A stretch of 64,000 bases of DNA, from the NCBI GenBank assembly GCA_029718625.1, contig CM056395.1, positions 26,654,160 through 26,718,159 on the forward strand. Reading direction: 5' to 3'. The position numbers and the translations under genes are program-made. The notes beneath the pieces are model-generated. The model was not told where the DNA came from. It made no database searches and saw nothing but the letters and a program-made list of their open reading frames with translations. The DNA is from Synaphobranchus kaupii (taxonomy: Eukaryota; Chordata; Actinopteri; Anguilliformes; Synaphobranchidae). Shown here piece by piece: positions 1 to 64,000 of the stretch; the first letter of the stretch is position 1, and each line of letters begins with the position of its first letter.

Positions 1-3000
1 GCGTTGTGTGGTGGTTAGAGATTCAGTTGTTGCAGGCCTTTCAGTTGTGGTTGGAATATTTGTTGTGGTGTGAGCTGCACTTGTAGTTGGATGAATTGTT
101 GTGGTTGGTGCTAGAGTTGTAGTTTTTGCTGCTGTTGTAGTGTGAGGTACAGTTGTAGTTGCTTTGCGATGTGTGGTGGTAAGAGATTCAGTTGTTGCAG
201 GACTTTCAGTTGTGGTTGGAACATTTGTTTGGCTTGGAACTGCACTTGTAGTTGGCGGTATTGTTGTAATTGCTGCAGCAGCTGTTGTTCCCACAGTTGT
301 TGTGGTGGGAGATACAGTTGTAGTTCTTGGACGATGTGTGGTGGTTAGAGATTCAGTTGTTGCAGGACTTTCAGTTGTGGTTGGAATATTTGTTTGGGTT
401 GGAGGTACACTTGTAGTTGGAGCAATTGTTGTAATTGCTGCAACAGTTGTAGTTTCTGCACTTGTTGTGATGGGAGATACAGTTGTAGTTGCCTGGCGTT
501 GTGTGGTGGTTAGAGATTCAGTTGTTGCAGGCCTTTCAGTTGTGGTTGGAATATTTGTTGTGGTGTGAGCTGCACTTGTAGTTGGATGAATTGTTGTGGT
601 TGGTGCTAGAGTTGTAGTTTTTGCTGCTGTTGTAGTGTGAGGTACAGTTGTAGTTGCTTTGCGATGTGTGGTGGTAAGAGATTCAGTTGTTGCAGGACTT
701 TCAGTTGTGGTTGGAACATTTGTTTGGCTTGGAGCTGCACTTGTAGTTGGCGGTATTGTTGTAATTGCTGCAGCAGCTGTTGTTCCCACAGTTGTTGTGG
801 TGGGAGATACAGTTGTAGTTCTTGGACGATGTGTGGTGGTTAGAGATTCAGTTGTTGCAGGCCTTTCAGTTGTGGTTGGAATATTTGTTGTGGTGTGAGC
901 TGCACTTGTAGTTGGATGAATTGTTGTGGTTGGTGCTAGAGTTGTAGTTTTTGCTGCTGTTGTAGTGTGAGGTACAGTTGTAGTTGCTTGGCGATGTGTG
1001 GTGGTAAGATATTCAGTTGTTGCAGGACTTTCAGTTCTGGTTGGAACATTTGTTTGGCTTGGAGCTGCACTTGTAGTTGGCGGTATTGTTGTAATTGCTG
1101 CAGCAGCTGTTGCTCCCGCAGTTGTTGTGGTGGGAGATACAGTTGTAGTTCTTGGACGATGTGTGGTGGTTAGAGATTCAGTTGTTGCAAGACTTTCAGT
1201 TGTGGTTGGAACATTTGTTGCGGTTGGAACTACACTTGTAGTTGGAGCAATTGTTGTAATTGCTGCAACAGTTGTAGTTTCTGCACTTGTTGTGGTGGGA
1301 GATACAGTTGTAGCTGCCTGGCGTTGTGTGGTGGTTAGAGATTCAGTTGTTGCAGGACTTTCAGTTGTGGTTGGAACATTTGTTTGGCTTGGAACTGCAC
1401 TTGTAGTTGGCGGTATTGTTGTAATTGCTGCAGCAACTGTTGTTCCCACAGTTGTTGTGGTGGGAGATACAGTTGTAGTTCTTGGACGATGTGTGGTGGT
1501 TAGAGATTCAGTTGTTGCAGGCCTTTCAGTTGTGGTTGGAATATTTGTTGTGGTGTGAGCTGCACTTGTAGTTGGATGAATTGTTGTGGTTGGTGCTAGA
1601 GTTGTAATTTTTGCTGCTGTTGTAGTGTGAGGTACAGTTGTAGTTGCTTTGCGATGTGTGGTGGTAAGAGATTCAGTTGTTGCAGGACTTTCAGTTGTGG
1701 TTGGAACATTTGTTTGGCTTGGAGCTGCACTTGTAGTTGGCGGTATTGTTGTAATTGCTGCAGCAGCTGTTGTTCCCACAGTTGTTGTGGTGGGAGATAC
1801 AGTTGTAGTTCTTGGACGATGTGTGGTGGTAAGAGATTCAGTTGTTGCAGGACTTTCAGTTGTTGTTGGAGCATTTGTTTGGCTTGGAGCTGCACTTGTA
1901 GTTGGCCGTATTGTTGTAATTGCTACAGCAGTTGTTGTTCCCACATTTGTAGTGGTGGGAGATACAGTTGTAGTTCTTGGATGTTGTGTGGTGGTTAGCG
2001 ATTCAGTTGTTGCAGGACTTTCAGTTGTGGTTGGAATATTTGTTGTGGTGTGCGCTGCACTTGTACTTGGAAGAATTGTTGTGGTTGGTTCTACAGTTGT
2101 AGTTTTTGCTGCTGCTGTAGTGCGAGGTACAGTTGTAGTTGCTTGGCGTTGTGTGGTGGTTAGAGATTCAGTTGTTGCCGGTCTTTCTGTTGTGGTTGGA
2201 ACATTTGATGTGGTGTGAGCTGCACTTGTAGTTGGCGGTATTGTTGTAATTGCTGCAGCAGCTGTTGTTCCCACAGTTGTTGTGGTGGGAGATACAGTTG
2301 TAGTTCTTGGACGATGTGTGGTGGTTAGAGATTCAGTTGTTGCAGGACTTTCAGTTGTGGTTGGAATATTTGTTTGTGTTGGAGGTACACTTTTAGTTGG
2401 AGCAATTGTTGTAATTGCTGCAACAGTTGTAGTTTCTGCACTTGTAGTGGTGGGAGATACAGTTGTAGTTCTTGGATGTTGTGTGGTGGTTAGCGATTCA
2501 GTTGTTGCAGGACTTTCAGTTGTGGTTGGAACATTTGTTTGGCTTGGAGCTGCACTTGTAGTTGGCGGTATTGTAATTGCTGCAGCAGCTGTTGTTCCCA
2601 CAGTTGTTGTGGTGGGAGATACAGTTGTAGTTCTTGGACGATGTGTGGTGGTAAGAGATTCAGTTGTTGCAGGCCTTTCAGTTGTGGTTGGAATATTTGT
2701 TTGGGTTGGAGGTACACTTGTAGTTGGAGCAATTGTTGTAATTGCTGCAACAGTTCTAGTTTCTGCACTTGTTGTGGTGGGAGATATAGTTGTAGCTGCC
2801 TGGCGTTGTGTGGTGGTTAGAGATTCAGTTGTTGCAGGACTTTCAGTTGTGGTTGGAACATTTGTTTGGCTTGGAACTGCACTTGTAGTTGGCGGTATTG
2901 TTGTAATTGCTGCAGCAGCTGTTGTTCCCACAGTTGTTGTGGTGGGAGATACAGTTGTAGTTCTTGGACGATGTGTGGTGGTTAGAGATTCAGTTGTTGC

Positions 3001-21000: not shown

Positions 21001-24000
21001 GGTTGGAATATTTGTTGTGGTGTGCGCTGCACTTGTACTTGGAAGAATTGTTGTGGTTGGTTCTACAGTTGTAGTTTTTGCTGCTGCTGTAGTGCGAGGT
21101 ACAGTTGTAGTTGCTTGGCGTTGTGTGGTGGTTAGAGATTCAGTTGTTGCCGGTCTTTCTGTTGTGGTTGGAACATTTGATGTGGTGTGAGCTGCACTTG
21201 TAGTTGGCGGTATTGTTGTAATTGCTGCAGCAGCTGTTGTTCCCACAGTTGTTGTGGTGGGAGATACAGTTGTAGTTCTTGGACGATGTGTGGTGGTTAG
21301 AGATTCAGTTGTTGCAGGACTTTCAGTTGTGGTTGGAATATTTGTTTGTGTTGGAGGTACACTTTTAGTTGGAGCAATTGTTGTAATTGCTGCAACAGTT
21401 GTAGTTTCTGCACTTGTAGTGGTGGGAGATACAGTTGTAGTTCTTGGATGTTGTGTGGTGGTTAGCGATTCAGTTGTTGCAGGACTTTCAGTTGTGGTTG
21501 GAACATTTGTTTGGCTTGGAGCTGCACTTGTAGTTGGCGGTATTGTTGTAATTGCTGCAGCAGCTGTTGTTCCCACAGTTGTTGTGGTGGGAGATACAGT
21601 TGTAGTTCTTGGACGATGTGTGGTGGTAAGAGATTCAGTTGTTGCAGGCCTTTCAGTTGTGGTTGGAATATTTGTTTGGGTTGGAGGTACACTTGTAGTT
21701 GGAGCAATTGTTGTAATTGCTGCAACAGTTCTAGTTTCTGCACTTGTTGTGGTGGGAGATATAGTTGTAGCTGCCTGGCGTTGTGTGGTGGTTAGAGATT
21801 CAGTTGTTGCAGGACTTTCAGTTGTGGTTGGAACATTTGTTTGGCTTGGAACTGCACTTGTAGTTGGCGGTATTGTTGTAATTGCTGCAGCAGCTGTTGT
21901 TCCCACAGTTGTTGTGGTGGGAGATACAGTTGTAGTTCTTGGACGATGTGTGGTGGTTAGAGATTCAGTTGTTGCAGGACTTTCAGTTGTGGTTGGAATA
22001 TTTGTTTGGGTTGGAGGTACACTTGTACTTGGAGCAATTGTTGTAATTGCTGCAACAGTTGTAGTTTCTGCACTTGTTGTGGGGGGAGATACAGTTGTAG
22101 TTGCCTGGCGTTGTGTGGTGGTTAGAGATTCAGTTGTTGCAGGCCTTTCAGTTGTGGTTGGAATATTTGTTGTGGTGTGAGCTGCACTTGTAGTTGGATG
22201 AATTGTTGTGGTTGGTGCTAGAGTTGTAGTTTTTGCTGCTGTTGTAGTGTGAGGTACAGTTGTAGTTGCTTTGCGATGTGTGGTGGTAAGAGATTCAGTT
22301 GTTGCAGGACTTTCAGTTGTGGTTGGAACATTTGTTTGGCTTGGAGCTGCACTTGTAGTTGGCAGTATTGTTGTAATTGCTCTAGCAGCTGTTGTTCCCA
22401 CAGTTGTTGTGGTGGGAGATACAGTTGTAGTTCTTGGACGATGTGTGGTGGTAAGAGATTCAGTTGTTGCAGGACTTTCAGTTGTCGTTGGAGCATTTGT
22501 TTGGCTTGGAGCTGCACTTGTAGTTGGCCGTATTTTTGTAATTGCTGTAGCAGTTGTTGTTCCCACATTTGTAGTGTTGGGAGATACAGTTGTAGTTCTT
22601 GGATGTTGTGTGGTGGTTTGCGATTCAGTTGTTGCAGGACTTTCAGTTGTGGTTGGAATATTTGTTGTGGTGTGAGCTGCACTTGTACTTGGAAGAATTG
22701 TTGTGGTTGGTGCTAGAGTTGTAGTTTTTGCTGCTGTTGTAGTGTGAGGTACAGTTGTAGTTGCTTGGCGTTGTGTGGTGGTTAGAGATTCAGTTGTTGC
22801 AGGACTTTCAGTTGTCGTTGGAACATTTGTTTGGCTTGGAACTGCACTTGTAGTTGGCAGTATTGTTGTAATTGCTGCAGCAGCTGTTGTTCCCACAGTT
22901 GTTGTGGTGGGAGATACAGTTGTAGTTCTTGGACGATGTGTGGTGGTTAGAGATTCAGTTGTTGCAGGCCTTTCAGTTGTGGTTGGAACATTTGTTTGGC
23001 TTGCAGCTGCACTTGTAGTTGGCGGTATTGTTGTAATTGCTCTAGCAGCTGTTGTTCCCACAGTTGTTGTGGTGGGAGATACAGGTGTAGTTCTTGGACG
23101 ATGTGTGGTGGTAAGAGATTCAGTTGTTGCAGGACTTTCAGTTGTGGTTGGAGCATTTGTTTGGCTTGGAGCTGCGCTTGTAGTTGGCCGTATTGTTGTA
23201 ATTGCTGCAGCAGTTGTTGTTCCCACAGTTGTTGTGGTGGGAGATACAGTTGTAGTTCTTGGACGATGTGTGGTGGTTAGAGATTCAGTTGTTGCAGGAC
23301 TTTCAGTTGTGGTTGGAGCATTTGATTGGCTTGGAGCTGCACTTGTAGTTGGCCGTATTGTTGTAATTGCTGCAGCAGTTGTTGTTCCCACATTTGTAGT
23401 GGTGGGAGATACAGTTGTAGTTCTTGGATGTTGTGTGGTGGTTAGAGATTCAGTTGTTGCAGGACTTTCAGTTGTGGTTGGAACATTTGTTTGGCTTGGA
23501 GCTGCACCTGTAGTTGGCGGTATTGTTGTAATTGCTGCAGCAACTGTTGTTCCCACAGTTGTTGTGGTGGGAGATACAGTTGTAGTTCTTGGATGTTGTG
23601 TGGTGGTTAGCGATTCAGTTGTTGCAGGACTTTCAGTTGTGGTTGGAATATTTGTTGTGGTGTGAGCTGCACTTGTACTTGGAAGAATTGTTGTGGTTGG
23701 TTCTACAGTTGTAGTTTTTGCTGCTGCTGTAGTACCAGGTACAGTTGTAGTTGCTTGGCGTTGTGTGGTGGTTAGAGATTCAGTTGTTGCCGGTCTTTCA
23801 GTTGTGGTTGGAACATTTGATGTGGTGTGAGCTGCACTTGTAGTTGGCGGTATTGTTGTAATTGCTGCAGCAGCTGTTGTTCCCACAGTTGTTGTGGTGG
23901 GAGATACAGTTATAGCTGCCTGGCGTTGTGTGGTGGTTAGAGATTCAGTTGTTGCAGGACTTTCAGTTGTGGTTTTAACATTTGTTTGGCTTGGAACTGC

Positions 24001-27000
24001 ACTTGTAGTTGGCGGTATTGTTGTAATTGCTGCAGCAGCTGTTGTTCCCACAGTTGTTGTGGTGGGAGATACAGTTGTAGTTCTTGGACGATGTGTGGTG
24101 GTTAGAGATTCAGTTGTTGCAGGACTTTCAGTTGTGATTGGAGCATTTGATTGGCTTGCAGCTGCACTTGTAGTTGGCCGTATTGTTGTAATTGCTGCAG
24201 CAGTTGTTGTTCCCACATTTGTAGTGGTGGGAGATACAGTTGTAGTTCTTGGATGTTGTGTGGTGGTTAGCGATTCAGTTGTTGCAGGACTTTCAGTTGT
24301 GGTTGGAATATTTGTTGTGGTGTGAGCTGCACTTGTACTTGGAAGAATTGTTGCGGTTGGTTCTACAGTTGTAGTTTTTGCTGCTGCTGTAGTACCAGGT
24401 ACAGTTGTAGTTGCTTGGCGTTGTGTGGTGGTTAGAGATTCAGTTGTTGCCGGTCTTTCAGTTGTGGTTGGAACATTTGATGTGGTGTGAGCTGCACTTG
24501 TAGTTGGCGGTATTGTTGTAATTGCTGCAGCAGCTGTTGTTCCCACAGTTGTTGTGGTGGGAGATACAGTTGTAGTTCTTGGACGATGTGTGGTGGTTAG
24601 AGATTCAGTTGTTGCAGGCCTTTCAGTTGTGGTTGGAATATTTGTTGTGGTGTGAGCTGCACTTGTAATTGGATGAATTGTTGTGGTTGGTGCTAGAGTT
24701 GTACTTTTTGCTGCTGTTGTAATGTGAGGTACAGGTGTAGTTACTTGGCGATGTGTGGTGGTAACAGATTCAGTTGTTGCAGGACTTTCAGTTGTGGTTG
24801 GAACATTTGTTTGGCTTGGAGCTGCACTTGTAGTTGGCGGTATTGTTGTAATTGCTGCAGCAGCTGTTGTTCCCACAGTTGTTGTGGGGGGAGATACAGT
24901 TGTAGTTCTTCGACGATGTGTGGTGGTTAGAGATTCAGTTGTTGCAGGACTTTCAGTTGTGGTTGGAGCATTTGATTGGCTTGGAGCTGCACTTGTAGTT
25001 GGCCATATTGTTGTAATTGCTGCAGCAGTTGTTGTTCCCACATTTGTAGTGGTGGGAGATACAGTTGTAGTTCTTGGATGTTGTGTGGTGGTTAGAGATT
25101 CAGTTGTTGCAGGACTTTCAGTTGTGGTTGGAACATTTGTTTGGCTTGGAACTGCACTTGTAGTTGGCGGTATTGTTGTAATTGCTGCAGCAGCTGTTGT
25201 TCCCACAGTTGTTGTGGTGGGAGATACAGTTGTAGTTCTTGGACGATGTGTGGTGGTTAGCGATTCAGTTGTTGCAGGACTTTCAGTTGTGGTTGGAATA
25301 TTTGTTGTGGTGTGAGCTGCACTTGTACTTGGAAGAATTGTTGTGGTTGGTGCTAGAGTTGTAGTTTTTGCTGCTGTTGTAATGTGAGGTACAGGTGTAG
25401 TTACTTGGCGATGTGTGGTGGTAACAGATTCAGTTGTTGCAGGGCTTTCAGTTGTGGTTGGAACATTTGTTTGGCTTTGAGCTGCACTTGTAGTTGGCGG
25501 TATTGTTGTAATTGCTGCAGCAGCTGTTGTTCCCACAGTTGTTGTGGTGGGAGATACAGTTGTAGTTCTTGGACGATGTGTGGTGGTTAGAGATTCAGTT
25601 GTTGCAGGACTTTCAGTTGTGGTTGGAGCATTTGATTGGCTTGGAGCTGCACTTGTAGTTGGCCGTATTGTTGTAATTGCTGCAGCAGTTGTTGTTCCCA
25701 CATTTGTAGTGGTGGGAGATACAGTTGTAGTTCTTGGATGTTGTGTGGTGGTTAGAGATTCAGTTGTTGCAGGACTTTCAGTTGTGGTTGGAATATTTGT
25801 TGTGGTGTGAGCTGCACTTGTACTTGGAAGAATTGTTGTGGTTGGTTCTAAAGTCGTAGTTTTTGCTGCTGCTGTAGTGCGAGGTACAGTTGTAGTTGCT
25901 TGGCGTTGTGTGGTGGTTAGAGATTCAGTTGTTGCCGGCCTTTCAGTTGTGGTTGGAACATTTGATGTGGTGTGAGCTGCACTTGTAGTTGGCGGTATTG
26001 TTGTAATTGCTGCAGCAGCTGTTGTTCCCACAGTTGTTGTGGTGGGAGATACTGTTGTAGTTCTTGGACGATGTGTGGTGGTTAGAGATTCAGTTGTTGC
26101 AGGACTTTCAGTTGTGGTTGGAATATTTGTTTGGGTTGGAGGTACACTTTTAGTTGGAACAATTGTTGTAATTGCTGCAACAGTTGTAGTTTCTGCACTT
26201 GTTGTGGTGGGAGATACAGTTGTAGTTGCCTGGCGTTGTGTGGTGGTTAGAGATTCAGTTGTTGCAGGCCTTTCAGTTGTGGTTGGAATATTTGTTGTGG
26301 TGTGAGCTGCACTTGTAGTTGGATGAATTGTTGTGGTTGGTGCTAGAGTTGTAGTTTTTGCTGCTGTTGTAGTGTGAGGTACAGTTGTCGTTGCTTTGCG
26401 ATGTGTGGTGGTAAGAGATTCAGTTGTTGCATGACTTTCAGTTGTGGTTGGAACATTTGTTTGGCTTGGAGCTGCACTTGTAGTTGGCGGTATTGTTGTA
26501 ATTGCTGCAGCAGCTGTTGTTCCCACAGTTGTTGTGGTGGGAGATACAGTTGTAGTTCTTGGACGATGTGTGGTGGTAAGAGATTCAGTTGTTGCAGGAC
26601 TTTCAGTTGTCGTTGGAGCATTTGTTTGGCTTGGAGCTGCACTTGTAGTTGGCCGTATTGTTGTAATTGCTGCAGCAGTTGTTCCCACATTTGTAGTGGT
26701 GGGAGATACAGTTGTAGTTCTTGGATGTTGTGTGGTGGTTAGCGATTCAGTTGTTGCAGGACTCTCAGTTGTGGTTGGAATATTTGTTGTGATGTGAGCT
26801 GCACTTGTACTTGGAAGAATTGTTGTGGTTGGTGCTAGAGTTGTAGTTTTTGCTGCTGTTGTAATGTGAGGTACAGGTGTAGTTACTTGGCGATGTGTGG
26901 TGGTAACAGATTCAGTTGTTGCAGGACTTTCAGTTGTGGTTGGAACATTTGTTTGGCTTTGAGCTGCACTTGTAGTTGGCGGTATTGTTGTAATTGCTGC

Positions 27001-30000
27001 AGCAGCTGGTGTTCCCACAGTTGTTGTGGTGGGAGATACAGTTGTAGTTCTTGGATGTTGTGTGGTGGTTAGCGATTCAGTTGTTGCAGGACTTTCAGTT
27101 GTGGTTGGAATATTTGTTGTGGTGTGAGCTGCACTTGTACTTGGAAGAATTGTTGTGGTTGGTTCTAAAGTCGTAGTTTTTGCTGCTGCTGTAGTGCGAG
27201 GTACAGTTGTAGTTGCTTGGCGTTGTGTGGTGGTTAGAGATTCAGTTGTTGCCGGTCTTTCAGTTGTGGTTGGAACATTTGATGTGGTGTGAGCTGCACT
27301 TGTAGTTGGCGGTATTGTTGTAATTGCTGCAGCAGCTGTTGTTCCCACAGTTGTTGTGGTGGGAGATACAGTTGTAGTTCTTGGACGATGTGTGCTGGTT
27401 AGAGATTCAGTTGTTGCAGGACTTTCAGTTGTGGTTGGAATATTTGTTGTGGTGTGAGCTGCACTTGTAGTTGGATGAATTATTGTGGTTGGTGCTAAAG
27501 TTGTAGTTTCTGCACTTGTTGTGGTGGGAGATACAGTTGTAGTTCCCTGGCGTTGTGTGGTGGTTAGAGATTCAGTTGTTGCAGGCCTTTCAGTTGTGGT
27601 TGGAATATTTGTTGTGGTGTGAGCTGCACTTGTACTTGGAAGAATTGTTGTGGATGGTGCTAGAGTTGTAGTTTTTGCTGCTGTTGTAGTGTGAGGTACA
27701 GTTGTAGTTGCTTGGCGATGTGTGGTGGTAAGAGATTCAGTTGTTGCAGGACTTTCAGTTGTGGTTGGAACATTTGTTTGGCTTGGAGCTGCACTTGTAG
27801 TTGGCAGTATTGTTGTAATTGCTGCAGCAGCTGTTGTTCCCACAGTTGTTGTGGTGGGAGATACAGTTGTAGTTCTTGGACGATGTGTGGTAGTTAGAGA
27901 TTCAGTTGTTGCAGGACTTTCAGTTGTGGTTGGAATATTTGTTGTGGTGTGAGCTGCACTTGTACTTGGAAGAATTGTTGTGGTTGGTGCTAGAGTTGTA
28001 GTTTTTGCTGCTGTTGTAGTGTGAGGTACAGTTGTAGTTGCTTGGCGATGTGTGGTGGTAAGAGATTCAGTTGTTGCAGGACTTTCAGTTGTGGTTGGAA
28101 CATTTGTTTGGCTTGGAGCTGCACTTGTAGTTGGCGGTATTGTTGTAATTGCTGCAGCAGCTGTTGTTCCCACAGTTGTTGTGGTGGGAGATACAGTTGT
28201 AGTTCTTGGACGATGTGTGGTGGTTAGAGATTCAGTTGTTGCAGGACTTTCAGTTGTGGTTGGAATATTTTTTTGGGTTGGAGGTACTCTTGTAGTTGGA
28301 GCAATTGTTGTAATTGCTGCAACAGTTCTAGTTTCTGCACTTGTTATGGTGGGAGATACAGTTGTAGTTCTTGGACGATGTGTGGTGGTAAGAGATTCAG
28401 TTGTTGCAGGACTTTCAGTTGTCGTTGGAGCATTTGTTTGGCTTGGAGCTGCACTTGTAGTTGGCCGTATTGTTGTAATTGCTGCAGCAGTTGTTGTTCC
28501 CACATTTGTAGTGGTGGGAGATACAGTTGTAGTTCTTGGATGTTGTGTGGTGGTTAGCGATTCAGTTGTTGCAGGACTTTCAGTTGTGGTTGGAATATTT
28601 GTTGTGGTGTGAGCTGCACTTGTAGTTGGATGAATTGTTGTGGTTGGTGCTAGAGTTGTAGTTTTTGCTGCTGTTGTAGTGTGAGGTACAGTTGTAGTTG
28701 CTTGGCGTTGTGTGGTGGTTAGAGATTCAGTTGTTGCCGGTCTTTCAGTTGTGGTTGGAACATTTGATGTGGTGTGAGCTGCACTTGTAGTTGGCGGTAT
28801 TGTTGTAATTGCTGCAGCAGCTGTTGTTCCCACAGTTGTTGTGGTGGGAGATACAGTTGTAGTTCTTGGACGATGTGTGGTGGTTAGAGATTCAGTTGTT
28901 GCAGGACTTTCAGTTGTGGTTGGAATATTTGTTTGGGTTGGAGGTACACTTTTAGTTGGAGCAATTGTTGTAATTGCTGCAACAGTTGTAGTTTCTGCAC
29001 TTGTTGTGGTGGGAGATACAGTTGTAGTTGCCTGGCGTTGTGTGGTGGTTAGAGATTCAGTTGTTGCAGGCCTTTCAGTTGTGGTTGGAATATTTGTTGT
29101 GGTGTGAGCTGCACTTGTAGTTGGATGAATTGTTGTGGTTGGTGCTAGAGTTGTAGTTTTTGCTGCTGTTGTAGTGTGAGGTACAGTTGTAGTTGCTTGG
29201 CGATGTGTGGTGGTAAGAGATTCAGTTGTTGCAGGACTTTCAGTTGTGGTGGGAACATTTGTTTGGCTTGGAGCTGCACTTGTAGTTAGCGGTATTGTTG
29301 TAATTGCTGCAGCAGCTGTTGTTCCCACAGTTGTTGTGGTGGGAGATACAGTTGTAGTTCTTGGATGTTGTGTGGTGGTTAGCGATTCAGTTGTTGCAGG
29401 ACTTTCAGTTGTGGTTGGAATATTTTTTGTGGTGTGAGCTGCACTTCTACTTGGAAGAATTGTTGTGGTTGGTTCTACAGTTGTAGTTTTTGCTGCTGCT
29501 GTAGTGCGAGGTACAGTTGTAGTTGCTTGGCGTTGTGTGGTGGTTAGAGATTCAGTTGTTGCCGGTCTTTCAGTTGTGGTTGGAACATTTGATGTGGTGT
29601 GAGCTGCACTTGTGGTTGGCGGTATTGTTGTAATTGCTGCAGCAGCTGTTGTTCCCACAGTTGTTGTGGTGGGAGATACAGTTGTAGTTGCCTGGCGTTG
29701 TGTGGTGGTTAGAGATTCAGTTGTTGCAGGCCTTTCAGTTGTGATTGGAATATTTGTTGTGGTGTGAGCTGCACTTCTACTTGGAAGAATTGTTGTGGTT
29801 GGTTCTACAGTTGTAGTTTTTGCTGCTGCTGTAGTGCGAGGTACAGTTGTAGTTGCTTGGCGTTGTGTGGTGGTTAGAGATTCAGTTGTTGCCGGTCTTT
29901 CAGTTGTGGTTGGAACATTTGATGTGGTGTGAGCTGCACTTGTAGTTGGCAGTATTGTTGTAATTGCTGCAGCAGCTGTTGTTCCCACAGTTGTTGTGGT

Positions 30001-33000: not shown

Positions 33001-36000
33001 TGTGGTGGTAAGAGATTCAGTTGTTGCAGGACTTTCAGTTGTGGTGGGAACATTTGTTTGGCTTGGAGCTGCACTTGTAGTTAGCGGTATTGTTGTAATT
33101 GCTCTAGCAGCTGTTGTTCCCACAGTTGTTGTGGTGGGAGATACAGTTGTAGTTCTTGGACGATGTGTGGTGGTAAGAGATTCAGTTGTTGCAGGACTTT
33201 CAGTTGTCGTTGGAGCATTTGTTTGGCTTGGAGCTGCACTTGTAGTTGGCCGTATTTTTGTAATTGCTGTAGCAGTTGTTGTTCCCACATTTGTAGTGTT
33301 GGGAGATACAGTTGTAGTTCTTGGATGTTGTGTGGTGGTTTGCGATTCAGTTGTTGCAGGACTTTCAGTTGTGGTTGGAATATTTGTTGTGGTGTGAGCT
33401 GCACTTGTACTTGGAAGAATTGTTGTGGTTGGTGCTAGAGTTGTAGTTTTTGCTGCTGTTGTAGTGTGAGGTACAGTTGTAGTTGCTTGGCGTTGTGTGG
33501 TGGTTAGAGATTCAGTTGTTGCAGGACTTTCAGTTGTCGTTGGAACATTTGTTTGGCTTGGAACTGCACTTGTAGTTGGCAGTATTGTTGTAATTGCTGC
33601 AGCAGCTGTTGTTCCCACAGTTGTTGTGGTGGGAGATACAGTTGTAGTTCTTGGACGATGTGTGGTGGTTAGAGATTCAGTTGTTGCAGGCCTTTCAGTT
33701 GTGGTTGGAACATTTGTTTGGCTTGCAGCTGCACTTGTAGTTGGCGGTATTGTTGTAATTGCTCTAGCAGCTGTTGTTCCCACAGTTGTTGTGGTGGGAG
33801 ATACAGGTGTAGTTCTTGGACGATGTGTGGTGGTAAGAGATTCAGTTGTTGCAGGACTTTCAGTTGTGGTTGGAGCATTTGTTTGGCTTGGAGCTGCGCT
33901 TGTAGTTGGCCGTATTGTTGTAATTGCTGCAGCAGTTGTTGTTCCCACAGTTGTTGTGGTGGGAGATACAGTTGTAGTTCTTGGACGATGTGTGGTGGTT
34001 AGAGATTCAGTTGTTGCAGGACTTTCAGTTGTGGTTGGAGCATTTGATTGGCTTGGAGCTGCACTTGTAGTTGGCCGTATTGTTGTAATTGCTGCAGCAG
34101 TTGTTGTTCCCACATTTGTAGTGGTGGGAGATACAGTTGTAGTTCTTGGATGTTGTGTGGTGGTTAGAGATTCAGTTGTTGCAGGACTTTCAGTTGTGGT
34201 TGGAACATTTGTTTGGCTTGGAGCTGCACCTGTAGTTGGCGGTATTGTTGTAATTGCTGCAGCAACTGTTGTTCCCACAGTTGTTGTGGTGGGAGATACA
34301 GTTGTAGTTCTTGGATGTTGTGTGGTGGTTAGCGATTCAGTTGTTGCAGGACTTTCAGTTGTGGTTGGAATATTTGTTGTGGTGTGAGCTGCACTTGTAC
34401 TTGGAAGAATTGTTGTGGTTGGTTCTACAGTTGTAGTTTTTGCTGCTGCTGTAGTACCAGGTACAGTTGTAGTTGCTTGGCGTTGTGTGGTGGTTAGAGA
34501 TTCAGTTGTTGCCGGTCTTTCAGTTGTGGTTGGAACATTTGATGTGGTGTGAGCTGCACTTGTAGTTGGCGGTATTGTTGTAATTGCTGCAGCAGCTGTT
34601 GTTCCCACAGTTGTTGTGGTGGGAGATACAGTTATAGCTGCCTGGCGTTGTGTGGTGGTTAGAGATTCAGTTGTTGCAGGACTTTCAGTTGTGGTTTTAA
34701 CATTTGTTTGGCTTGGAACTGCACTTGTAGTTGGCGGTATTGTTGTAATTGCTGCAGCAGCTGTTGTTCCCACAGTTGTTGTGGTGGGAGATACAGTTGT
34801 AGTTCTTGGACGATGTGTGGTGGTTAGAGATTCAGTTGTTGCAGGACTTTCAGTTGTGATTGGAGCATTTGATTGGCTTGCAGCTGCACTTGTAGTTGGC
34901 CGTATTGTTGTAATTGCTGCAGCAGTTGTTGTTCCCACATTTGTAGTGGTGGGAGATACAGTTGTAGTTCTTGGATGTTGTGTGGTGGTTAGCGATTCAG
35001 TTGTTGCAGGACTTTCAGTTGTGGTTGGAATATTTGTTGTGGTGTGAGCTGCACTTGTACTTGGAAGAATTGTTGCGGTTGGTTCTACAGTTGTAGTTTT
35101 TGCTGCTGCTGTAGTACCAGGTACAGTTGTAGTTGCTTGGCGTTGTGTGGTGGTTAGAGATTCAGTTGTTGCCGGTCTTTCAGTTGTGGTTGGAACATTT
35201 GATGTGGTGTGAGCTGCACTTGTAGTTGGCGGTATTGTTGTAATTGCTGCAGCAGCTGTTGTTCCCACAGTTGTTGTGGTGGGAGATACAGTTGTAGTTC
35301 TTGGACGATGTGTGGTGGTTAGAGATTCAGTTGTTGCAGGCCTTTCAGTTGTGGTTGGAATATTTGTTGTGGTGTGAGCTGCACTTGTAATTGGATGAAT
35401 TGTTGTGGTTGGTGCTAGAGTTGTACTTTTTGCTGCTGTTGTAATGTGAGGTACAGGTGTAGTTACTTGGCGATGTGTGGTGGTAACAGATTCAGTTGTT
35501 GCAGGACTTTCAGTTGTGGTTGGAACATTTGTTTGGCTTGGAGCTGCACTTGTAGTTGGCGGTATTGTTGTAATTGCTGCAGCAGCTGTTGTTCCCACAG
35601 TTGTTGTGGGGGGAGATACAGTTGTAGTTCTTCGACGATGTGTGGTGGTTAGAGATTCAGTTGTTGCAGGACTTTCAGTTGTGGTTGGAGCATTTGATTG
35701 GCTTGGAGCTGCACTTGTAGTTGGCCATATTGTTGTAATTGCTGCAGCAGTTGTTGTTCCCACATTTGTAGTGGTGGGAGATACAGTTGTAGTTCTTGGA
35801 TGTTGTGTGGTGGTTAGAGATTCAGTTGTTGCAGGACTTTCAGTTGTGGTTGGAACATTTGTTTGGCTTGGAACTGCACTTGTAGTTGGCGGTATTGTTG
35901 TAATTGCTGCAGCAGCTGTTGTTCCCACAGTTGTTGTGGTGGGAGATACAGTTGTAGTTCTTGGACGATGTGTGGTGGTTAGCGATTCAGTTGTTGCAGG

Positions 36001-39000
36001 ACTTTCAGTTGTGGTTGGAATATTTGTTGTGGTGTGAGCTGCACTTGTACTTGGAAGAATTGTTGTGGTTGGTGCTAGAGTTGTAGTTTTTGCTGCTGTT
36101 GTAATGTGAGGTACAGGTGTAGTTACTTGGCGATGTGTGGTGGTAACAGATTCAGTTGTTGCAGGGCTTTCAGTTGTGGTTGGAACATTTGTTTGGCTTT
36201 GAGCTGCACTTGTAGTTGGCGGTATTGTTGTAATTGCTGCAGCAGCTGTTGTTCCCACAGTTGTTGTGGTGGGAGATACAGTTGTAGTTCTTGGACGATG
36301 TGTGGTGGTTAGAGATTCAGTTGTTGCAGGACTTTCAGTTGTGGTTGGAGCATTTGATTGGCTTGGAGCTGCACTTGTAGTTGGCCGTATTGTTGTAATT
36401 GCTGCAGCAGTTGTTGTTCCCACATTTGTAGTGGTGGGAGATACAGTTGTAGTTCTTGGATGTTGTGTGGTGGTTAGAGATTCAGTTGTTGCAGGACTTT
36501 CAGTTGTGGTTGGAATATTTGTTGTGGTGTGAGCTGCACTTGTACTTGGAAGAATTGTTGTGGTTGGTTCTAAAGTCGTAGTTTTTGCTGCTGCTGTAGT
36601 GCGAGGTACAGTTGTAGTTGCTTGGCGTTGTGTGGTGGTTAGAGATTCAGTTGTTGCCGGCCTTTCAGTTGTGGTTGGAACATTTGATGTGGTGTGAGCT
36701 GCACTTGTAGTTGGCGGTATTGTTGTAATTGCTGCAGCAGCTGTTGTTCCCACAGTTGTTGTGGTGGGAGATACTGTTGTAGTTCTTGGACGATGTGTGG
36801 TGGTTAGAGATTCAGTTGTTGCAGGACTTTCAGTTGTGGTTGGAATATTTGTTTGGGTTGGAGGTACACTTTTAGTTGGAACAATTGTTGTAATTGCTGC
36901 AACAGTTGTAGTTTCTGCACTTGTTGTGGTGGGAGATACAGTTGTAGTTGCCTGGCGTTGTGTGGTGGTTAGAGATTCAGTTGTTGCAGGCCTTTCAGTT
37001 GTGGTTGGAATATTTGTTGTGGTGTGAGCTGCACTTGTAGTTGGATGAATTGTTGTGGTTGGTGCTAGAGTTGTAGTTTTTGCTGCTGTTGTAGTGTGAG
37101 GTACAGTTGTCGTTGCTTTGCGATGTGTGGTGGTAAGAGATTCAGTTGTTGCATGACTTTCAGTTGTGGTTGGAACATTTGTTTGGCTTGGAGCTGCACT
37201 TGTAGTTGGCGGTATTGTTGTAATTGCTGCAGCAGCTGTTGTTCCCACAGTTGTTGTGGTGGGAGATACAGTTGTAGTTCTTGGACGATGTGTGGTGGTA
37301 AGAGATTCAGTTGTTGCAGGACTTTCAGTTGTCGTTGGAGCATTTGTTTGGCTTGGAGCTGCACTTGTAGTTGGCCGTATTGTTGTAATTGCTGCAGCAG
37401 TTGTTCCCACATTTGTAGTGGTGGGAGATACAGTTGTAGTTCTTGGATGTTGTGTGGTGGTTAGCGATTCAGTTGTTGCAGGACTCTCAGTTGTGGTTGG
37501 AATATTTGTTGTGGTGTGAGCTGCACTTGTACTTGGAAGAATTGTTGTGGTTGGTGCTAGAGTTGTAGTTTTTGCTGCTGTTGTAATGTGAGGTACAGGT
37601 GTAGTTACTTGGCGATGTGTGGTGGTAACAGATTCAGTTGTTGCAGGACTTTCAGTTGTGGTTGGAACATTTGTTTGGCTTTGAGCTGCACTTGTAGTTG
37701 GCGGTATTGTTGTAATTGCTGCAGCAGCTGGTGTTCCCACAGTTGTTGTGGTGGGAGATACAGTTGTAGTTCTTGGATGTTGTGTGGTGGTTAGCGATTC
37801 AGTTGTTGCAGGACTTTCAGTTGTGGTTGGAATATTTGTTGTGGTGTGAGCTGCACTTGTACTTGGAAGAATTGTTGTGGTTGGTTCTAAAGTCGTAGTT
37901 TTTGCTGCTGCTGTAGTGCGAGGTACAGTTGTAGTTGCTTGGCGTTGTGTGGTGGTTAGAGATTCAGTTGTTGCCGGTCTTTCAGTTGTGGTTGGAACAT
38001 TTGATGTGGTGTGAGCTGCACTTGTAGTTGGCGGTATTGTTGTAATTGCTGCAGCAGCTGTTGTTCCCACAGTTGTTGTGGTGGGAGATACAGTTGTAGT
38101 TCTTGGACGATGTGTGCTGGTTAGAGATTCAGTTGTTGCAGGACTTTCAGTTGTGGTTGGAATATTTGTTGTGGTGTGAGCTGCACTTGTAGTTGGATGA
38201 ATTATTGTGGTTGGTGCTAAAGTTGTAGTTTCTGCACTTGTTGTGGTGGGAGATACAGTTGTAGTTCCCTGGCGTTGTGTGGTGGTTAGAGATTCAGTTG
38301 TTGCAGGCCTTTCAGTTGTGGTTGGAATATTTGTTGTGGTGTGAGCTGCACTTGTACTTGGAAGAATTGTTGTGGATGGTGCTAGAGTTGTAGTTTTTGC
38401 TGCTGTTGTAGTGTGAGGTACAGTTGTAGTTGCTTGGCGATGTGTGGTGGTAAGAGATTCAGTTGTTGCAGGACTTTCAGTTGTGGTTGGAACATTTGTT
38501 TGGCTTGGAGCTGCACTTGTAGTTGGCAGTATTGTTGTAATTGCTGCAGCAGCTGTTGTTCCCACAGTTGTTGTGGTGGGAGATACAGTTGTAGTTCTTG
38601 GACGATGTGTGGTAGTTAGAGATTCAGTTGTTGCAGGACTTTCAGTTGTGGTTGGAATATTTGTTGTGGTGTGAGCTGCACTTGTACTTGGAAGAATTGT
38701 TGTGGTTGGTGCTAGAGTTGTAGTTTTTGCTGCTGTTGTAGTGTGAGGTACAGTTGTAGTTGCTTGGCGATGTGTGGTGGTAAGAGATTCAGTTGTTGCA
38801 GGACTTTCAGTTGTGGTTGGAACATTTGTTTGGCTTGGAGCTGCACTTGTAGTTGGCGGTATTGTTGTAATTGCTGCAGCAGCTGTTGTTCCCACAGTTG
38901 TTGTGGTGGGAGATACAGTTGTAGTTCTTGGACGATGTGTGGTGGTTAGAGATTCAGTTGTTGCAGGACTTTCAGTTGTGGTTGGAATATTTTTTTGGGT

Positions 39001-42000
39001 TGGAGGTACTCTTGTAGTTGGAGCAATTGTTGTAATTGCTGCAACAGTTCTAGTTTCTGCACTTGTTATGGTGGGAGATACAGTTGTAGTTCTTGGACGA
39101 TGTGTGGTGGTAAGAGATTCAGTTGTTGCAGGACTTTCAGTTGTCGTTGGAGCATTTGTTTGGCTTGGAGCTGCACTTGTAGTTGGCCGTATTGTTGTAA
39201 TTGCTGCAGCAGTTGTTGTTCCCACATTTGTAGTGGTGGGAGATACAGTTGTAGTTCTTGGATGTTGTGTGGTGGTTAGCGATTCAGTTGTTGCAGGACT
39301 TTCAGTTGTGGTTGGAATATTTGTTGTGGTGTGAGCTGCACTTGTAGTTGGATGAATTGTTGTGGTTGGTGCTAGAGTTGTAGTTTTTGCTGCTGTTGTA
39401 GTGTGAGGTACAGTTGTAGTTGCTTGGCGTTGTGTGGTGGTTAGAGATTCAGTTGTTGCCGGTCTTTCAGTTGTGGTTGGAACATTTGATGTGGTGTGAG
39501 CTGCACTTGTAGTTGGCGGTATTGTTGTAATTGCTGCAGCAGCTGTTGTTCCCACAGTTGTTGTGGTGGGAGATACAGTTGTAGTTCTTGGACGATGTGT
39601 GGTGGTTAGAGATTCAGTTGTTGCAGGACTTTCAGTTGTGGTTGGAATATTTGTTTGGGTTGGAGGTACACTTTTAGTTGGAGCAATTGTTGTAATTGCT
39701 GCAACAGTTGTAGTTTCTGCACTTGTTGTGGTGGGAGATACAGTTGTAGTTGCCTGGCGTTGTGTGGTGGTTAGAGATTCAGTTGTTGCAGGCCTTTCAG
39801 TTGTGGTTGGAATATTTGTTGTGGTGTGAGCTGCACTTGTAGTTGGATGAATTGTTGTGGTTGGTGCTAGAGTTGTAGTTTTTGCTGCTGTTGTAGTGTG
39901 AGGTACAGTTGTAGTTGCTTGGCGATGTGTGGTGGTAAGAGATTCAGTTGTTGCAGGACTTTCAGTTGTGGTGGGAACATTTGTTTGGCTTGGAGCTGCA
40001 CTTGTAGTTAGCGGTATTGTTGTAATTGCTGCAGCAGCTGTTGTTCCCACAGTTGTTGTGGTGGGAGATACAGTTGTAGTTCTTGGATGTTGTGTGGTGG
40101 TTAGCGATTCAGTTGTTGCAGGACTTTCAGTTGTGGTTGGAATATTTTTTGTGGTGTGAGCTGCACTTCTACTTGGAAGAATTGTTGTGGTTGGTTCTAC
40201 AGTTGTAGTTTTTGCTGCTGCTGTAGTGCGAGGTACAGTTGTAGTTGCTTGGCGTTGTGTGGTGGTTAGAGATTCAGTTGTTGCCGGTCTTTCAGTTGTG
40301 GTTGGAACATTTGATGTGGTGTGAGCTGCACTTGTGGTTGGCGGTATTGTTGTAATTGCTGCAGCAGCTGTTGTTCCCACAGTTGTTGTGGTGGGAGATA
40401 CAGTTGTAGTTGCCTGGCGTTGTGTGGTGGTTAGAGATTCAGTTGTTGCAGGCCTTTCAGTTGTGATTGGAATATTTGTTGTGGTGTGAGCTGCACTTCT
40501 ACTTGGAAGAATTGTTGTGGTTGGTTCTACAGTTGTAGTTTTTGCTGCTGCTGTAGTGCGAGGTACAGTTGTAGTTGCTTGGCGTTGTGTGGTGGTTAGA
40601 GATTCAGTTGTTGCCGGTCTTTCAGTTGTGGTTGGAACATTTGATGTGGTGTGAGCTGCACTTGTAGTTGGCAGTATTGTTGTAATTGCTGCAGCAGCTG
40701 TTGTTCCCACAGTTGTTGTGGTGGGAGATACAGTTGTAGTTCTTGGACGATGTGTGGTAGTTAGAGATTCAGTTGTTGCAGGACTTTCAGTTGTGGTTGG
40801 AATATTTGTTGTGGTGTGAGCTGCACTTGTACTTGGAAGAATTGTTGTGGTTGGTGCTAGAGTTGTAGTTTTTGCTGCTGTTGTAGTGTGAGGTACAGTT
40901 GTAGTTGCTTGGCGATGTGTGGTGGTAAGAGATTCAGTTGTTGCAGGACTTTCAGTTGTGGTTGGAACATTTGTTTGGCTTGGAGCTGCACTTGTAGTTG
41001 GCGGTATTGTTGTAATTGCTGCAGCAGCTGTTGTTCCCACAGTTGTTGTGGTGGGAGATACAGTTGTAGTTCTTGGACGATGTGTGGTGGTTAGAGATTC
41101 AGTTGTTGCAGGACTTTCAGTTGTGGTTGGAATATTTTTTTGGGTTGGAGGTACTCTTGTAGTTGGAGCAATTGTTGTAATTGCTGCAACAGTTCTAGTT
41201 TCTGCACTTGTTATGGTGGGAGATACAGTTGTAGTTCTTGGACGATGTGTGGTGGTAAGAGATTCAGTTGTTGCAGGACTTTCAGTTGTCGTTGGAGCAT
41301 TTGTTTGGCTTGGAGCTGCACTTGTAGTTGGCCGTATTGTTGTAATTGCTGCAGCAGTTGTTGTTCCCACATTTGTAGTGGTGGGAGATACAGTTGTAGT
41401 TCTTGGATGTTGTGTGGTGGTTAGCGATTCAGTTGTTGCAGGACTTTCAGTTGTGGTTGGAATATTTGTTGTGGTGTGAGCTGCACTTGTAGTTGGATGA
41501 ATTGTTGTGGTTGGTGCTAGAGTTGTAGTTTTTGCTGCTGTTGTAGTGTGAGGTACAGTTGTAGTTGCTTGGCGTTGTGTGGTGGTTAGAGATTCAGTTG
41601 TTGCCGGTCTTTCAGTTGTGGTTGGAACATTTGATGTGGTGTGAGCTGCACTTGTAGTTGGCGGTATTGTTGTAATTGCTGCAGCAGCTGTTGTTCCCAC
41701 AGTTGTTGTGGTGGGAGATACAGTTGTAGTTCTTGGACGATGTGTGGTGGTTAGAGATTCAGTTGTTGCAGGACTTTCAGTTGTGGTTGGAATATTTGTT
41801 TGGGTTGGAGGTACACTTTTAGTTGGAGCAATTGTTGTAATTGCTGCAACAGTTGTAGTTTCTGCACTTGTTGTGGTGGGAGATACAGTTGTAGTTGCCT
41901 GGCGTTGTGTGGTGGTTAGAGATTCAGTTGTTGCAGGCCTTTCAGTTGTGGTTGGAATATTTGTTGTGGTGTGAGCTGCACTTGTAGTTGGATGAATTGT

Positions 42001-45000
42001 TGTGGTTGGTGCTAGAGTTGTAGTTTTTGCTGCTGTTGTAGTGTGAGGTACAGTTGTAGTTGCTTGGCGATGTGTGGTGGTAAGAGATTCAGTTGTTGCA
42101 GGACTTTCAGTTGTGGTGGGAACATTTGTTTGGCTTGGAGCTGCACTTGTAGTTAGCGGTATTGTTGTAATTGCTGCAGCAGCTGTTGTTCCCACAGTTG
42201 TTGTGGTGGGAGATACAGTTGTAGTTCTTGGATGTTGTGTGGTGGTTAGCGATTCAGTTGTTGCAGGACTTTCAGTTGTGGTTGGAATATTTTTTGTGGT
42301 GTGAGCTGCACTTCTACTTGGAAGAATTGTTGTGGTTGGTTCTACAGTTGTAGTTTTTGCTGCTGCTGTAGTGCGAGGTACAGTTGTAGTTGCTTGGCGT
42401 TGTGTGGTGGTTAGAGATTCAGTTGTTGCCGGTCTTTCAGTTGTGGTTGGAACATTTGATGTGGTGTGAGCTGCACTTGTGGTTGGCGGTATTGTTGTAA
42501 TTGCTGCAGCAGCTGTTGTTCCCACAGTTGTTGTGGTGGGAGATACAGTTGTAGTTGCCTGGCGTTGTGTGGTGGTTAGAGATTCAGTTGTTGCAGGCCT
42601 TTCAGTTGTGATTGGAATATTTGTTGTGGTGTGAGCTGCAATTGTAGTTGGATGAATTGTTGTGGTTGGTGCTAGAATTGTAGTTTTTGCTGCTGTTGTA
42701 ATGTGAGGTACAGGTGTAGTTACTTGGCGATGTGTGGTAGTAACAGATTCAGTTGTTGCAGGACTTTCAGTTGTGGTTGGAACATTTGTTTGGCTTTGAG
42801 CTGCACTTGTAGTTGGCGGTATTTTTGTAATTGCTGCAGCAGCTGTTGTTCCCACAGTTGTTGTGGTGGGAGATACAGTTGTAGTTCTTGGACGATGTGT
42901 GGTGGTTAGAGATTCAGTTGTTGCAGGACTTTCAGTTGTGGTTGGAATATTTGTTTGGGTTGGAGGTACACTTTTAGTTGGAGCAATTGTTGTAATTGCT
43001 GCAACAGTTGTAGTTTCTGCACTTGTTGTGGTGGGAGATACAGTTGTAGTTCTTGGATGTTGTGTGGTGGTTAGCGATTCAGTTGTTGCAGGACTTTCAG
43101 TTGTGGTTGGAATATTTGTTGTGGTGTGAGCTGCACTTGTAGTTGGATGAATTGTTGTGGTTGGTGCTAGAGTTGTAGTTTTTGCTGCTGTTGTAGTGTG
43201 AGGTACAGTTGTAGTTGCTTGGCGTTGTGTGGTGGTTAGAGATTCAGTTGTTGCCGGTCTTTCAGTTGTGGTTGGAACATTTGATGTGGTGTGAGCTGCA
43301 CTTGTAGTTGGCGGTATTGTTGTAATTGCTGCAGCAGCTGTTGTTCCCACAGTTGTTGTGGTGGGAGATACAGTTGTAGTTCTTGGACGATGTGTGGTGG
43401 TTAGAGATTCAGTTGTTGCAGGACTTTCAGTTGTGGTCGGAATATTTGTTTGGGTTGGAGGTACACTTTTAGTTGGAGCAATTGTTGTAATTGCTGCAAC
43501 AGTTGTAGTTTCTGCACTTGTTGTGGTGGGAGATACAGTTGTAGTTGCCTGGCGTTGTGTGGTGGTTAGAGATTCAGTTCTTGCAGGCCTTTCAGTTGTG
43601 GTTGGAATATTTGTTGTGGTGTGAGCTGCACTTGTAGTTGGATGAATTGTTGTGGTTGGTGCTAGAGTTGTAGTTTTTGCTGCTGTTGTAGTGTGAGGTA
43701 CAGTTGTAGTTGCTTGGCGATGTGTGGTGGTAAGAGATTCAGTTGTTGCAGGACTTTCAGTTGTGGTGGGAACATTTGTTTGGCTTGGAGCTGCACTTGT
43801 AGTTAGCGGTATTGTTGTAATTGCTGCAGCAGCTGTTGTTCCCACAGTTGTTGTGGTGGGAGATACAGTTGTAGTTCTTGGATGTTGTGTGGTGGTTAGC
43901 GATTCAGTTGTTGCAGGACTTTCAGTTGTGGTTGGAATATTTTTTGTGGTGTGAGCTGCACTTCTACTTGGAAGAATTGTTGTGGTTGGTTCTACAGTTG
44001 TAGTTTTTGCTGCTGCTGTAGTGCGAGGTACAGTTGTAGTTGCTTTGCGTTGTGTGGTGGTTAGAGATTCAGTTGTTGCCGGTCTTTCAGTTGTGGTTGG
44101 AACATTTGATGTAGTGTGAGCTGCACTTGTGGTTGGCGGTATTGTTGTAATTGCTGCAGCAGCTGTTGTTCCCACAGTTGTTGTGGTGGGAGATACAGTT
44201 GTAGTTGCCTGGCGTTGTGTGGTGGTTAGAGATTCAGTTGTTGCAGGCCTTTCAGTTGTGATTGGAATATTTGTTGTGGTGTGAGCTGCACTTGTAGTTG
44301 GATGAATTGTTGTGGTTGGTGCTAGAATTGTAGTTTTTGCTGCTGTTGTAATGTGAGGTACAGGTGTAGTTACTTGGCGATGTGTGGTAGTAACAGATTC
44401 AGTTGTTGCAGGACTTTCAGTTGTGGTTGGAACATTTGTTTGGCTTTGAGCTGCACTTGTAGTTGGCGGTATTTTTGTAATTGCTGCAGCAGCTGTTGTT
44501 CCCACAGTTGTTGTTGTGGGAGATACAGTTGTAGTTCTTGGACGATGTGTGGTGGTTAGAGATTCAGTTGTTGCAGGACTTTCAGTTGTGGTTGGAATAT
44601 TTGTTTGGGTTGGAGGTACACTTTTAGTTGGAGCAATTGTTGTAATTGCTGCAACAGTTGTAGTTTCTGCACTTGTTGTGGTGGGAGATACAGTTGTAGT
44701 TCTTGGATGTTGTGTGGTGGTTAGCGATTCAGTTGTTGCAGGACTTTCAGTTGTGGTTGGAATATTTGTTGTGGTGTGAGCTGCACTTGTAGTTGGATGA
44801 ATTGTTGTGGTTGGTGCTAGAGTTGTAGTTTTTGCTGCTGTTGTAGTTTGAGGTACAGTTGTAGTTGCTTGGCGTTGTGTGGTGGTTAGAGATTCAGTTG
44901 TTGCCGGTCTTTCAGTTGTGGTTGGAACATTTGATGTGGTGTGAGCTGCACTTGTAGTTGGCGGTATTGTTGTAATTGCTGCAGCAGCTGTTGTTCCCAC

Positions 45001-64000: not shown

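Follow-up and report, generated by a model that had tools for sequence, protein, structure and literature searches.

Mucins are defined by a domain rich in proline, threonine and serine (PTS) together with a VWD or a SEA domain, and the PTS region usually, but not universally, lies in one large exon, according to the available sections of PMC1552070. For human MUC12, a 2026 preprint describes alleles with predicted products of up to 23,080 aa and, in the portion accessible to us, ranks the exon concerned above all others in the human genome (PMC13345508). Giant repetitive products are also found outside the mucins. In the spider aggregate spidroin AgSp1, a gene of 42,270 bp with two exons encodes a Gly-rich product of extreme length that is likely O-glycosylated on Thr, and the available text mentions no membrane segment (PMC6553539). 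In the bacterial Omnitrophota, some open frames are giant and probably code for surface proteins, one in Velamenicoccus archaeovorus reaching 39,678 aa; they carry many membrane helices, and no mucin-like repeat is mentioned in the excerpt at hand (PMC10066038).

The DNA analysed here, which we call the window, is a stretch of 64,000 nucleotides (C20:26654160-26718159) from a genome of 1,503,245,316 bases in 94 contigs. Translation of the whole window in the minus-strand frame anchored at base 63,999 gave 21,333 codons with no stop and a single Met, and the remaining five frames contained 358 to 1,511 stops each. After shuffling of the same strand (first-order Markov, 20 replicates), the longest open runs in its three frames were 209 to 356 codons. 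Tandem Repeats Finder detected an array of 165-nt units from base 5 to base 64,000, in 388 copies. Splitting at the conserved start yielded 388 unit starts. Of the 387 complete units, 380 encode 55 aa and 7 encode 54 aa; these units occur in 148 distinct DNA and 126 distinct protein versions. The part encoded by the window amounts to 2.17 MDa, with 48.5% Thr+Ser. Positions 1 to 64,000 (minus strand) thus look like the interior of a giant PTS-like repeat exon. A previous sequence-only reading had claimed a stop-free, almost Met-free frame over the 64 kb, a 55-residue Thr/Pro/Ser-rich repeat and a chain of about 2 MDa from the window alone. All three hold for the sequence, and the stop-free frame had been understated.

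To follow the frame outwards, 100 kb was fetched on each side, then probes farther out, and then the intervening 25 kb. On the 5′ side, the 100-kb extension did not reach the end of the open frame. The first 4 of 20 probes placed beyond this point lay within the array, in the same frame and without stops; of the other 16, none lay in this array and one fell in a different Thr-rich array. The complete stop-to-stop frame runs from 26,840,654 down to 26,611,863 (228,792 nt, 76,263 codons, no stop), which bears out the assertion that neither of its ends falls in the window, and the 289 kb read around it contains no N. It holds 1,373 unit starts, and the pieces that these delimit comprise 457 distinct DNA sequences and 389 distinct protein sequences. 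On either side the array passes into unique sequence in the same open frame; the absence of such sequence had been named beforehand as speaking against the reading, as had in-frame stops, of which there are none.

The start of the frame is diverged and has an acceptor-like border (TATTTTTAG followed by AGCAACAAC), and its end has a donor-like border (AGAAT/GTACGT) that is short of ideal. We therefore predict, from one stop-free frame with splice-like borders, a single exon (exon A; C20:26611918-26840574, window -42241 to 186415, minus strand) of 228,657 nt. This length is a multiple of 3, and the phase is equal at both ends as we read it. The predicted product has a mass of about 7.75 MDa and 36,976 Thr+Ser (48.5%). 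Over its 76,218 aa the composition is T 40.6%, A 12.1%, P 10.6%, S 7.9% and Gly 1.0%; the exon thus encodes a long, mostly tandemly repeated Pro/Thr/Ser-rich domain of the kind required of a mucin. The proposal that the window is the interior of one exon of at least 64 kb is supported: the window would lie wholly inside a predicted exon about 3.6 times its length, belonging to a mucin-like protein of about 76,000 aa. Such an exon and protein would rank among the largest proposed so far. One predicted protein of bacteria is larger still, at about 85,800 aa. Among the matches listed in our literature searches there was no larger single coding exon, which is not proof that there is none.

The locus resembles MUC12, in which, as far as the partial text of the preprint goes, the in-frame tandem repeats of a tethered mucin fill a single very large exon (PMC13345508). 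Here, the chain predicted exceeds that of the longest of those alleles about 3.3-fold, the unit is of 55 aa, and no juxtamembrane domain is recognised. The MUC12 alleles set a precedent against the claim that 64 kb exceeds known mucin exons; by analogy they make a mucin exon of 64 kb credible, and 228 kb goes well beyond them. In the predicted gene model a PTS region is followed by small exons and then by a putative membrane segment, an order like that of the SEA-type mucins MUC1, MUC13 and MUC16, as these are presented in the available sections of PMC1552070, but Pfam found no SEA domain here. Likewise, of the comparison with MUC16 made from the sequence, the general PTS likeness stands, but no mucin domain came up when portions of the frame and the following exons were searched against Pfam and PDB. 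AgSp1 resembles the predicted product in its extreme length and repetitiveness, and the two may also share O-glycosylation on Thr, but the Gly-rich repeats typical of aggregate spidroins are absent from exon A. What is shared with the Omnitrophota is a giant open frame that likely codes for a surface protein.

The gene to which exon A is assigned (gene 1) appears to contain several smaller exons, all predicted on the minus strand of C20. Upstream, two exons of 40 nt (26840685-26840724) and 65 nt (26842336-26842400) have borders that are matched in a paralogue. Downstream follow exon B (152 nt, 26611645-26611796, beginning TGKVLIFIHLVFITNKTIPNDCEVLTLANTLLDTRIRQ), exon C (122 nt, 26611276-26611397, beginning KLSENSFAMRLGYQMNNMSM), exon D (101 nt, 26609945-26610045, beginning DMPREIQATEEYVFQQPDIQRPSNFLSAI) and a putative membrane exon (179 nt, 26606763-26606941, ending in LPGWALAIIIPCGIAIILLLFWILLG). 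The last one encodes a hydrophobic segment with a Kyte-Doolittle mean of 2.97 over a 19-aa window. By our reading of the phases, the joins from A to B, from B to C and from D to the membrane exon are compatible; an exon linking C to D, which the phase requires, was not found. No signal peptide was recognised by eye among the upstream peptides in about 12.6 kb.

Searches with exons B, C, D and the membrane exon of gene 1 gave no SEA, VWD or any other Pfam domain at the cut-off, and exons B, C and D of the paralogue gave no Pfam domain at the cut-off either; for the exons of both genes the Pfam matches were at chance level (best E 0.062). An NCBIfam search agreed with Pfam in finding no domain. 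The profile of B+C had no hit in PDB, and a protein database search with the same two exons returned no match. To our eyes exons B and C have a β-α-β-β-α look, but naming them a SEA domain was considered and rejected. A divergent SEA-like fold could still be present. Because Pfam finds neither SEA nor VWD, we use the label mucin-like only and assign neither class of mucin.

The repeats themselves had no recognisable relatives in databases, several of which may leave out records of the window's own genome. Rfam gave no hit on the window, Pfam none on the 6 kb at either end of it (E up to 1), PDB none with one 1,000-residue piece of the frame, and the plasmid and phage search none with one 5,000-base piece. 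The 6 pattern matches in viral contigs and the 42 in genome contigs included no relative. Likewise, none of 7,991 scored protein candidates reached E 0.001. The 4 of 7,996 protein candidates that passed at E up to 10 (best 0.013) were short proteins containing Thr-rich low-complexity stretches and were rejected as relatives. In the surroundings, a UnaL2 LINE 3′ element, of a LINE linked to fish, scored above the Rfam cut-off in a flanking piece (L044, 4508-4561), and by eye a 335-codon frame on the minus strand near 26850555 resembles part of a LINE. A split frame between gene 1 and the paralogue (26602471-26603121, minus strand) is presumably that of a Tc1/mariner-like transposase. CpG observed/expected in the non-exonic stretches was 0.48 to 0.61, a mild depletion. 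CpG depletion was rejected as a mark of vertebrate DNA, since the values first obtained came largely from the array itself and those outside exons are so mild. A bony fish is the likely source.

The paralogue (gene 2) lies to the left of gene 1 on the same contig. It contains a second giant Thr-rich frame, stop-free over 53,043 nt and 17,680 codons on the minus strand, from 26588452 to 26535410 (window -118749 to -65707), with 46% Thr and a base unit of 141 nt, unlike the 165-nt unit of gene 1. The two genes share the two small upstream exons, the exon borders and exons B, C and D, and over B+C their identity is 56%. Thus, two arrays that are unlike each other are both open over their full length between matching borders. 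The 6 kb surrounding the end of gene 2 showed no membrane exon of the gene 1 type; the product of gene 2 may be secreted, or gene 2 may form one gene together with the next array. The Ka/Ks of B+C+D between the two genes was 0.75 (B 0.82, C 0.49, D 1.09), and the shifted frames gave 0.86 and 1.18. Judged from Ka/Ks, the constraint on these exons would be weak.

Probes suggest two further Thr-rich arrays beside genes 1 and 2. A third giant array is likely at 26484160-26530559, where 9 of 9 probes were open in one frame; some carried gene-1-type units and others gene-2-type units, and this mixture suggests that units move between neighbouring genes. Another Thr-rich array (TTTQAPTTTSAP), likewise known from probes only, appears to lie upstream of gene 1 at 26893160-26904559, near an exon-B-like peptide at 26890160.

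We then asked whether the frame is kept by selection. Among 430 distinct 165-nt units connected by edges of at most 3 steps, 320 distinct substitutions were inferred (234 non-synonymous, 86 synonymous, 0 stop), where the observed mutation spectrum would predict 231.9, 84.5 and 3.6 (P 0.026 for stops); mutations were treated as independent in these counts, an assumption that gene conversion can violate. Restriction to one-step edges left 182 substitutions (134 non-synonymous, 48 synonymous, 0 stop; expected 133.4, 46.6 and 2.0; stop P 0.14), and the window alone gave 122 (89, 33 and 0). Without removal of duplicates one change was scored as a stop, though no unit contains a stop. The ω value among repeat units was about 0.99, and losses of Thr and Ser (72 versus 82.8 expected) showed no clear protection. 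By these counts the amino-acid changes among units look neutral, and the absence of stops is by itself weak to modest evidence for selection.

When pieces longer than 180 nt (6 distinct ones) were set aside, the indels among the remaining 451 distinct units fell into 11 distinct patterns, all multiples of 3 (sizes 3, 9, 15 and 18); several of them overlap and may represent fewer events, and indels in any open frame are in frame by construction. As a control, 11 nearby non-exonic tandem arrays were used, in which 15 of 18 small indels were not multiples of 3 (Fisher P about 1e-5 versus the exon), the control indels being counted against the consensus rather than a tree and the exon indels against other units. 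All 18 indels lie in 4 arrays, a single CA-rich array accounting for 9 of them; in the other 7 arrays there was no small indel. Omission of the CA-rich array left 8 of 9 that were not multiples of 3 (P about 7e-5). The count of 18 excludes the 11 of 29 indels that were 19 nt or longer, taken as alignment-edge effects; with all indels kept, 22 of 29 were not multiples of 3 (P about 1e-5). Indels were also rarer per substitution in the exon (11:320) than in the control (18:78; P about 2e-6). The control indicates that arrays in this region do accept frame-breaking indels.

The length of the frame is a weaker proof of coding than it appears. Only 8,258 of the 76,219 codons in the exon are one substitution away from a stop, and one antisense frame of gene 2 (26535410-26588452) is open for 3,805 codons, presumably from composition alone. 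It is the indel test and the flanking exons, not the length, that carry the case for coding.

Taken together, we consider it probable that a single exon of 228,657 nt specifies the extracellular, O-glycosylated portion of a mucin-like protein tethered to the membrane. The exact length of the array is also open to assembly error because of its near-identical blocks. Recurring blocks of at least 3 kb make up 57% of the exon; the largest are two adjoining copies of 10.7 kb (window positions 22365..33103 and 33087..43825, minus strand), which differ by 2 mismatches in 10,739 nt and could result either from recent unequal exchange or from duplication in the assembly. An identical twin exists for 1,090 of the 1,322 full-length (55-aa) units. 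The mean differences to the nearest unit are 4.0 for the first 30 units, 1.6 for the last 30 and 0.2 in the middle, and such diverged ends, together with the twinned units, are the pattern expected of unequal exchange. A real gene with a shorter mucin-like exon, inflated by misjoining of such blocks, is nevertheless unlikely: the longest exact repeat in the exon is 6,333 nt, a length that typical accurate long reads exceed, the region is free of N, and the 457 distinct DNA units argue against wholesale duplication. We hold it to be just as doubtful that cryptic introns remove most of the array, so that mature messages keep only part of it and the protein is far smaller. The PTS domain of chicken Muc13 is split over several exons, as stated in the accessible part of PMC1552070, but GTAAGT and GTGAGT are absent from the sense strand of exon A and the frame is intact throughout, which spliced-out parts would not require.

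The array might instead be a non-coding satellite, or the gene might be dead, the founder unit having been open by chance and its Thr/Pro/Ala codons buffering it against stops. The neutral amino-acid changes, the scarcity of codons one step from a stop and the open antisense frame of gene 2 fit with this. We find it improbable all the same, since none of the 11 indel patterns breaks the frame though nearby arrays have such indels, unique in-frame sequence occurs at both array ends, and the unlike arrays of genes 1 and 2 are both open between matching borders. Finally, the hydrophobic segment downstream of exon A and the nearby UnaL2 LINE end, which suggests fish, make it very improbable that the product is not mucin-like but a secreted fibrous or glue protein similar to spidroins or insect glues. 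Giant Thr-containing repeat genes do exist in spider glue, with AgSp1 as the example, but glycine amounts to about 22% in the AgSp1 repeats, as given in the available part of PMC6553539, versus 1.0% here.

If the locus indeed encodes a tethered mucin-like protein, the predicted splice sites of exon A would be used, the downstream hydrophobic segment would serve as its membrane anchor, and the Thr and Ser residues would carry O-glycans. The resulting rod might form a very tall glycocalyx or a shed mucus barrier. The rod, the sugars, the anchor and the barrier role are deduced from composition and exon order. Unequal exchange between units whose length is a multiple of three would amplify the open frame. 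Substitutions may drift neutrally because any Thr/Pro/Ala/Ser-rich text would give the same stiff glycan brush, and a frameshift would remove the membrane end, so that selection would purge it.

Such an exon would be overlooked by gene callers that mask repeats or depend on finding the two ends of a frame. Translation of such a chain would take hours, and its extended length would be many micrometres. If real, it would increase the maximum size of exons and of animal proteins several fold, and it raises the question of how a cell transcribes, exon-defines, exports, translates without slip and glycosylates 76,000 residues. The tandem gene cluster would permit a comparison of growth among such arrays. 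The locus would also offer a natural example of coding repeats whose frame, but not whose amino acids, selection seems to preserve.
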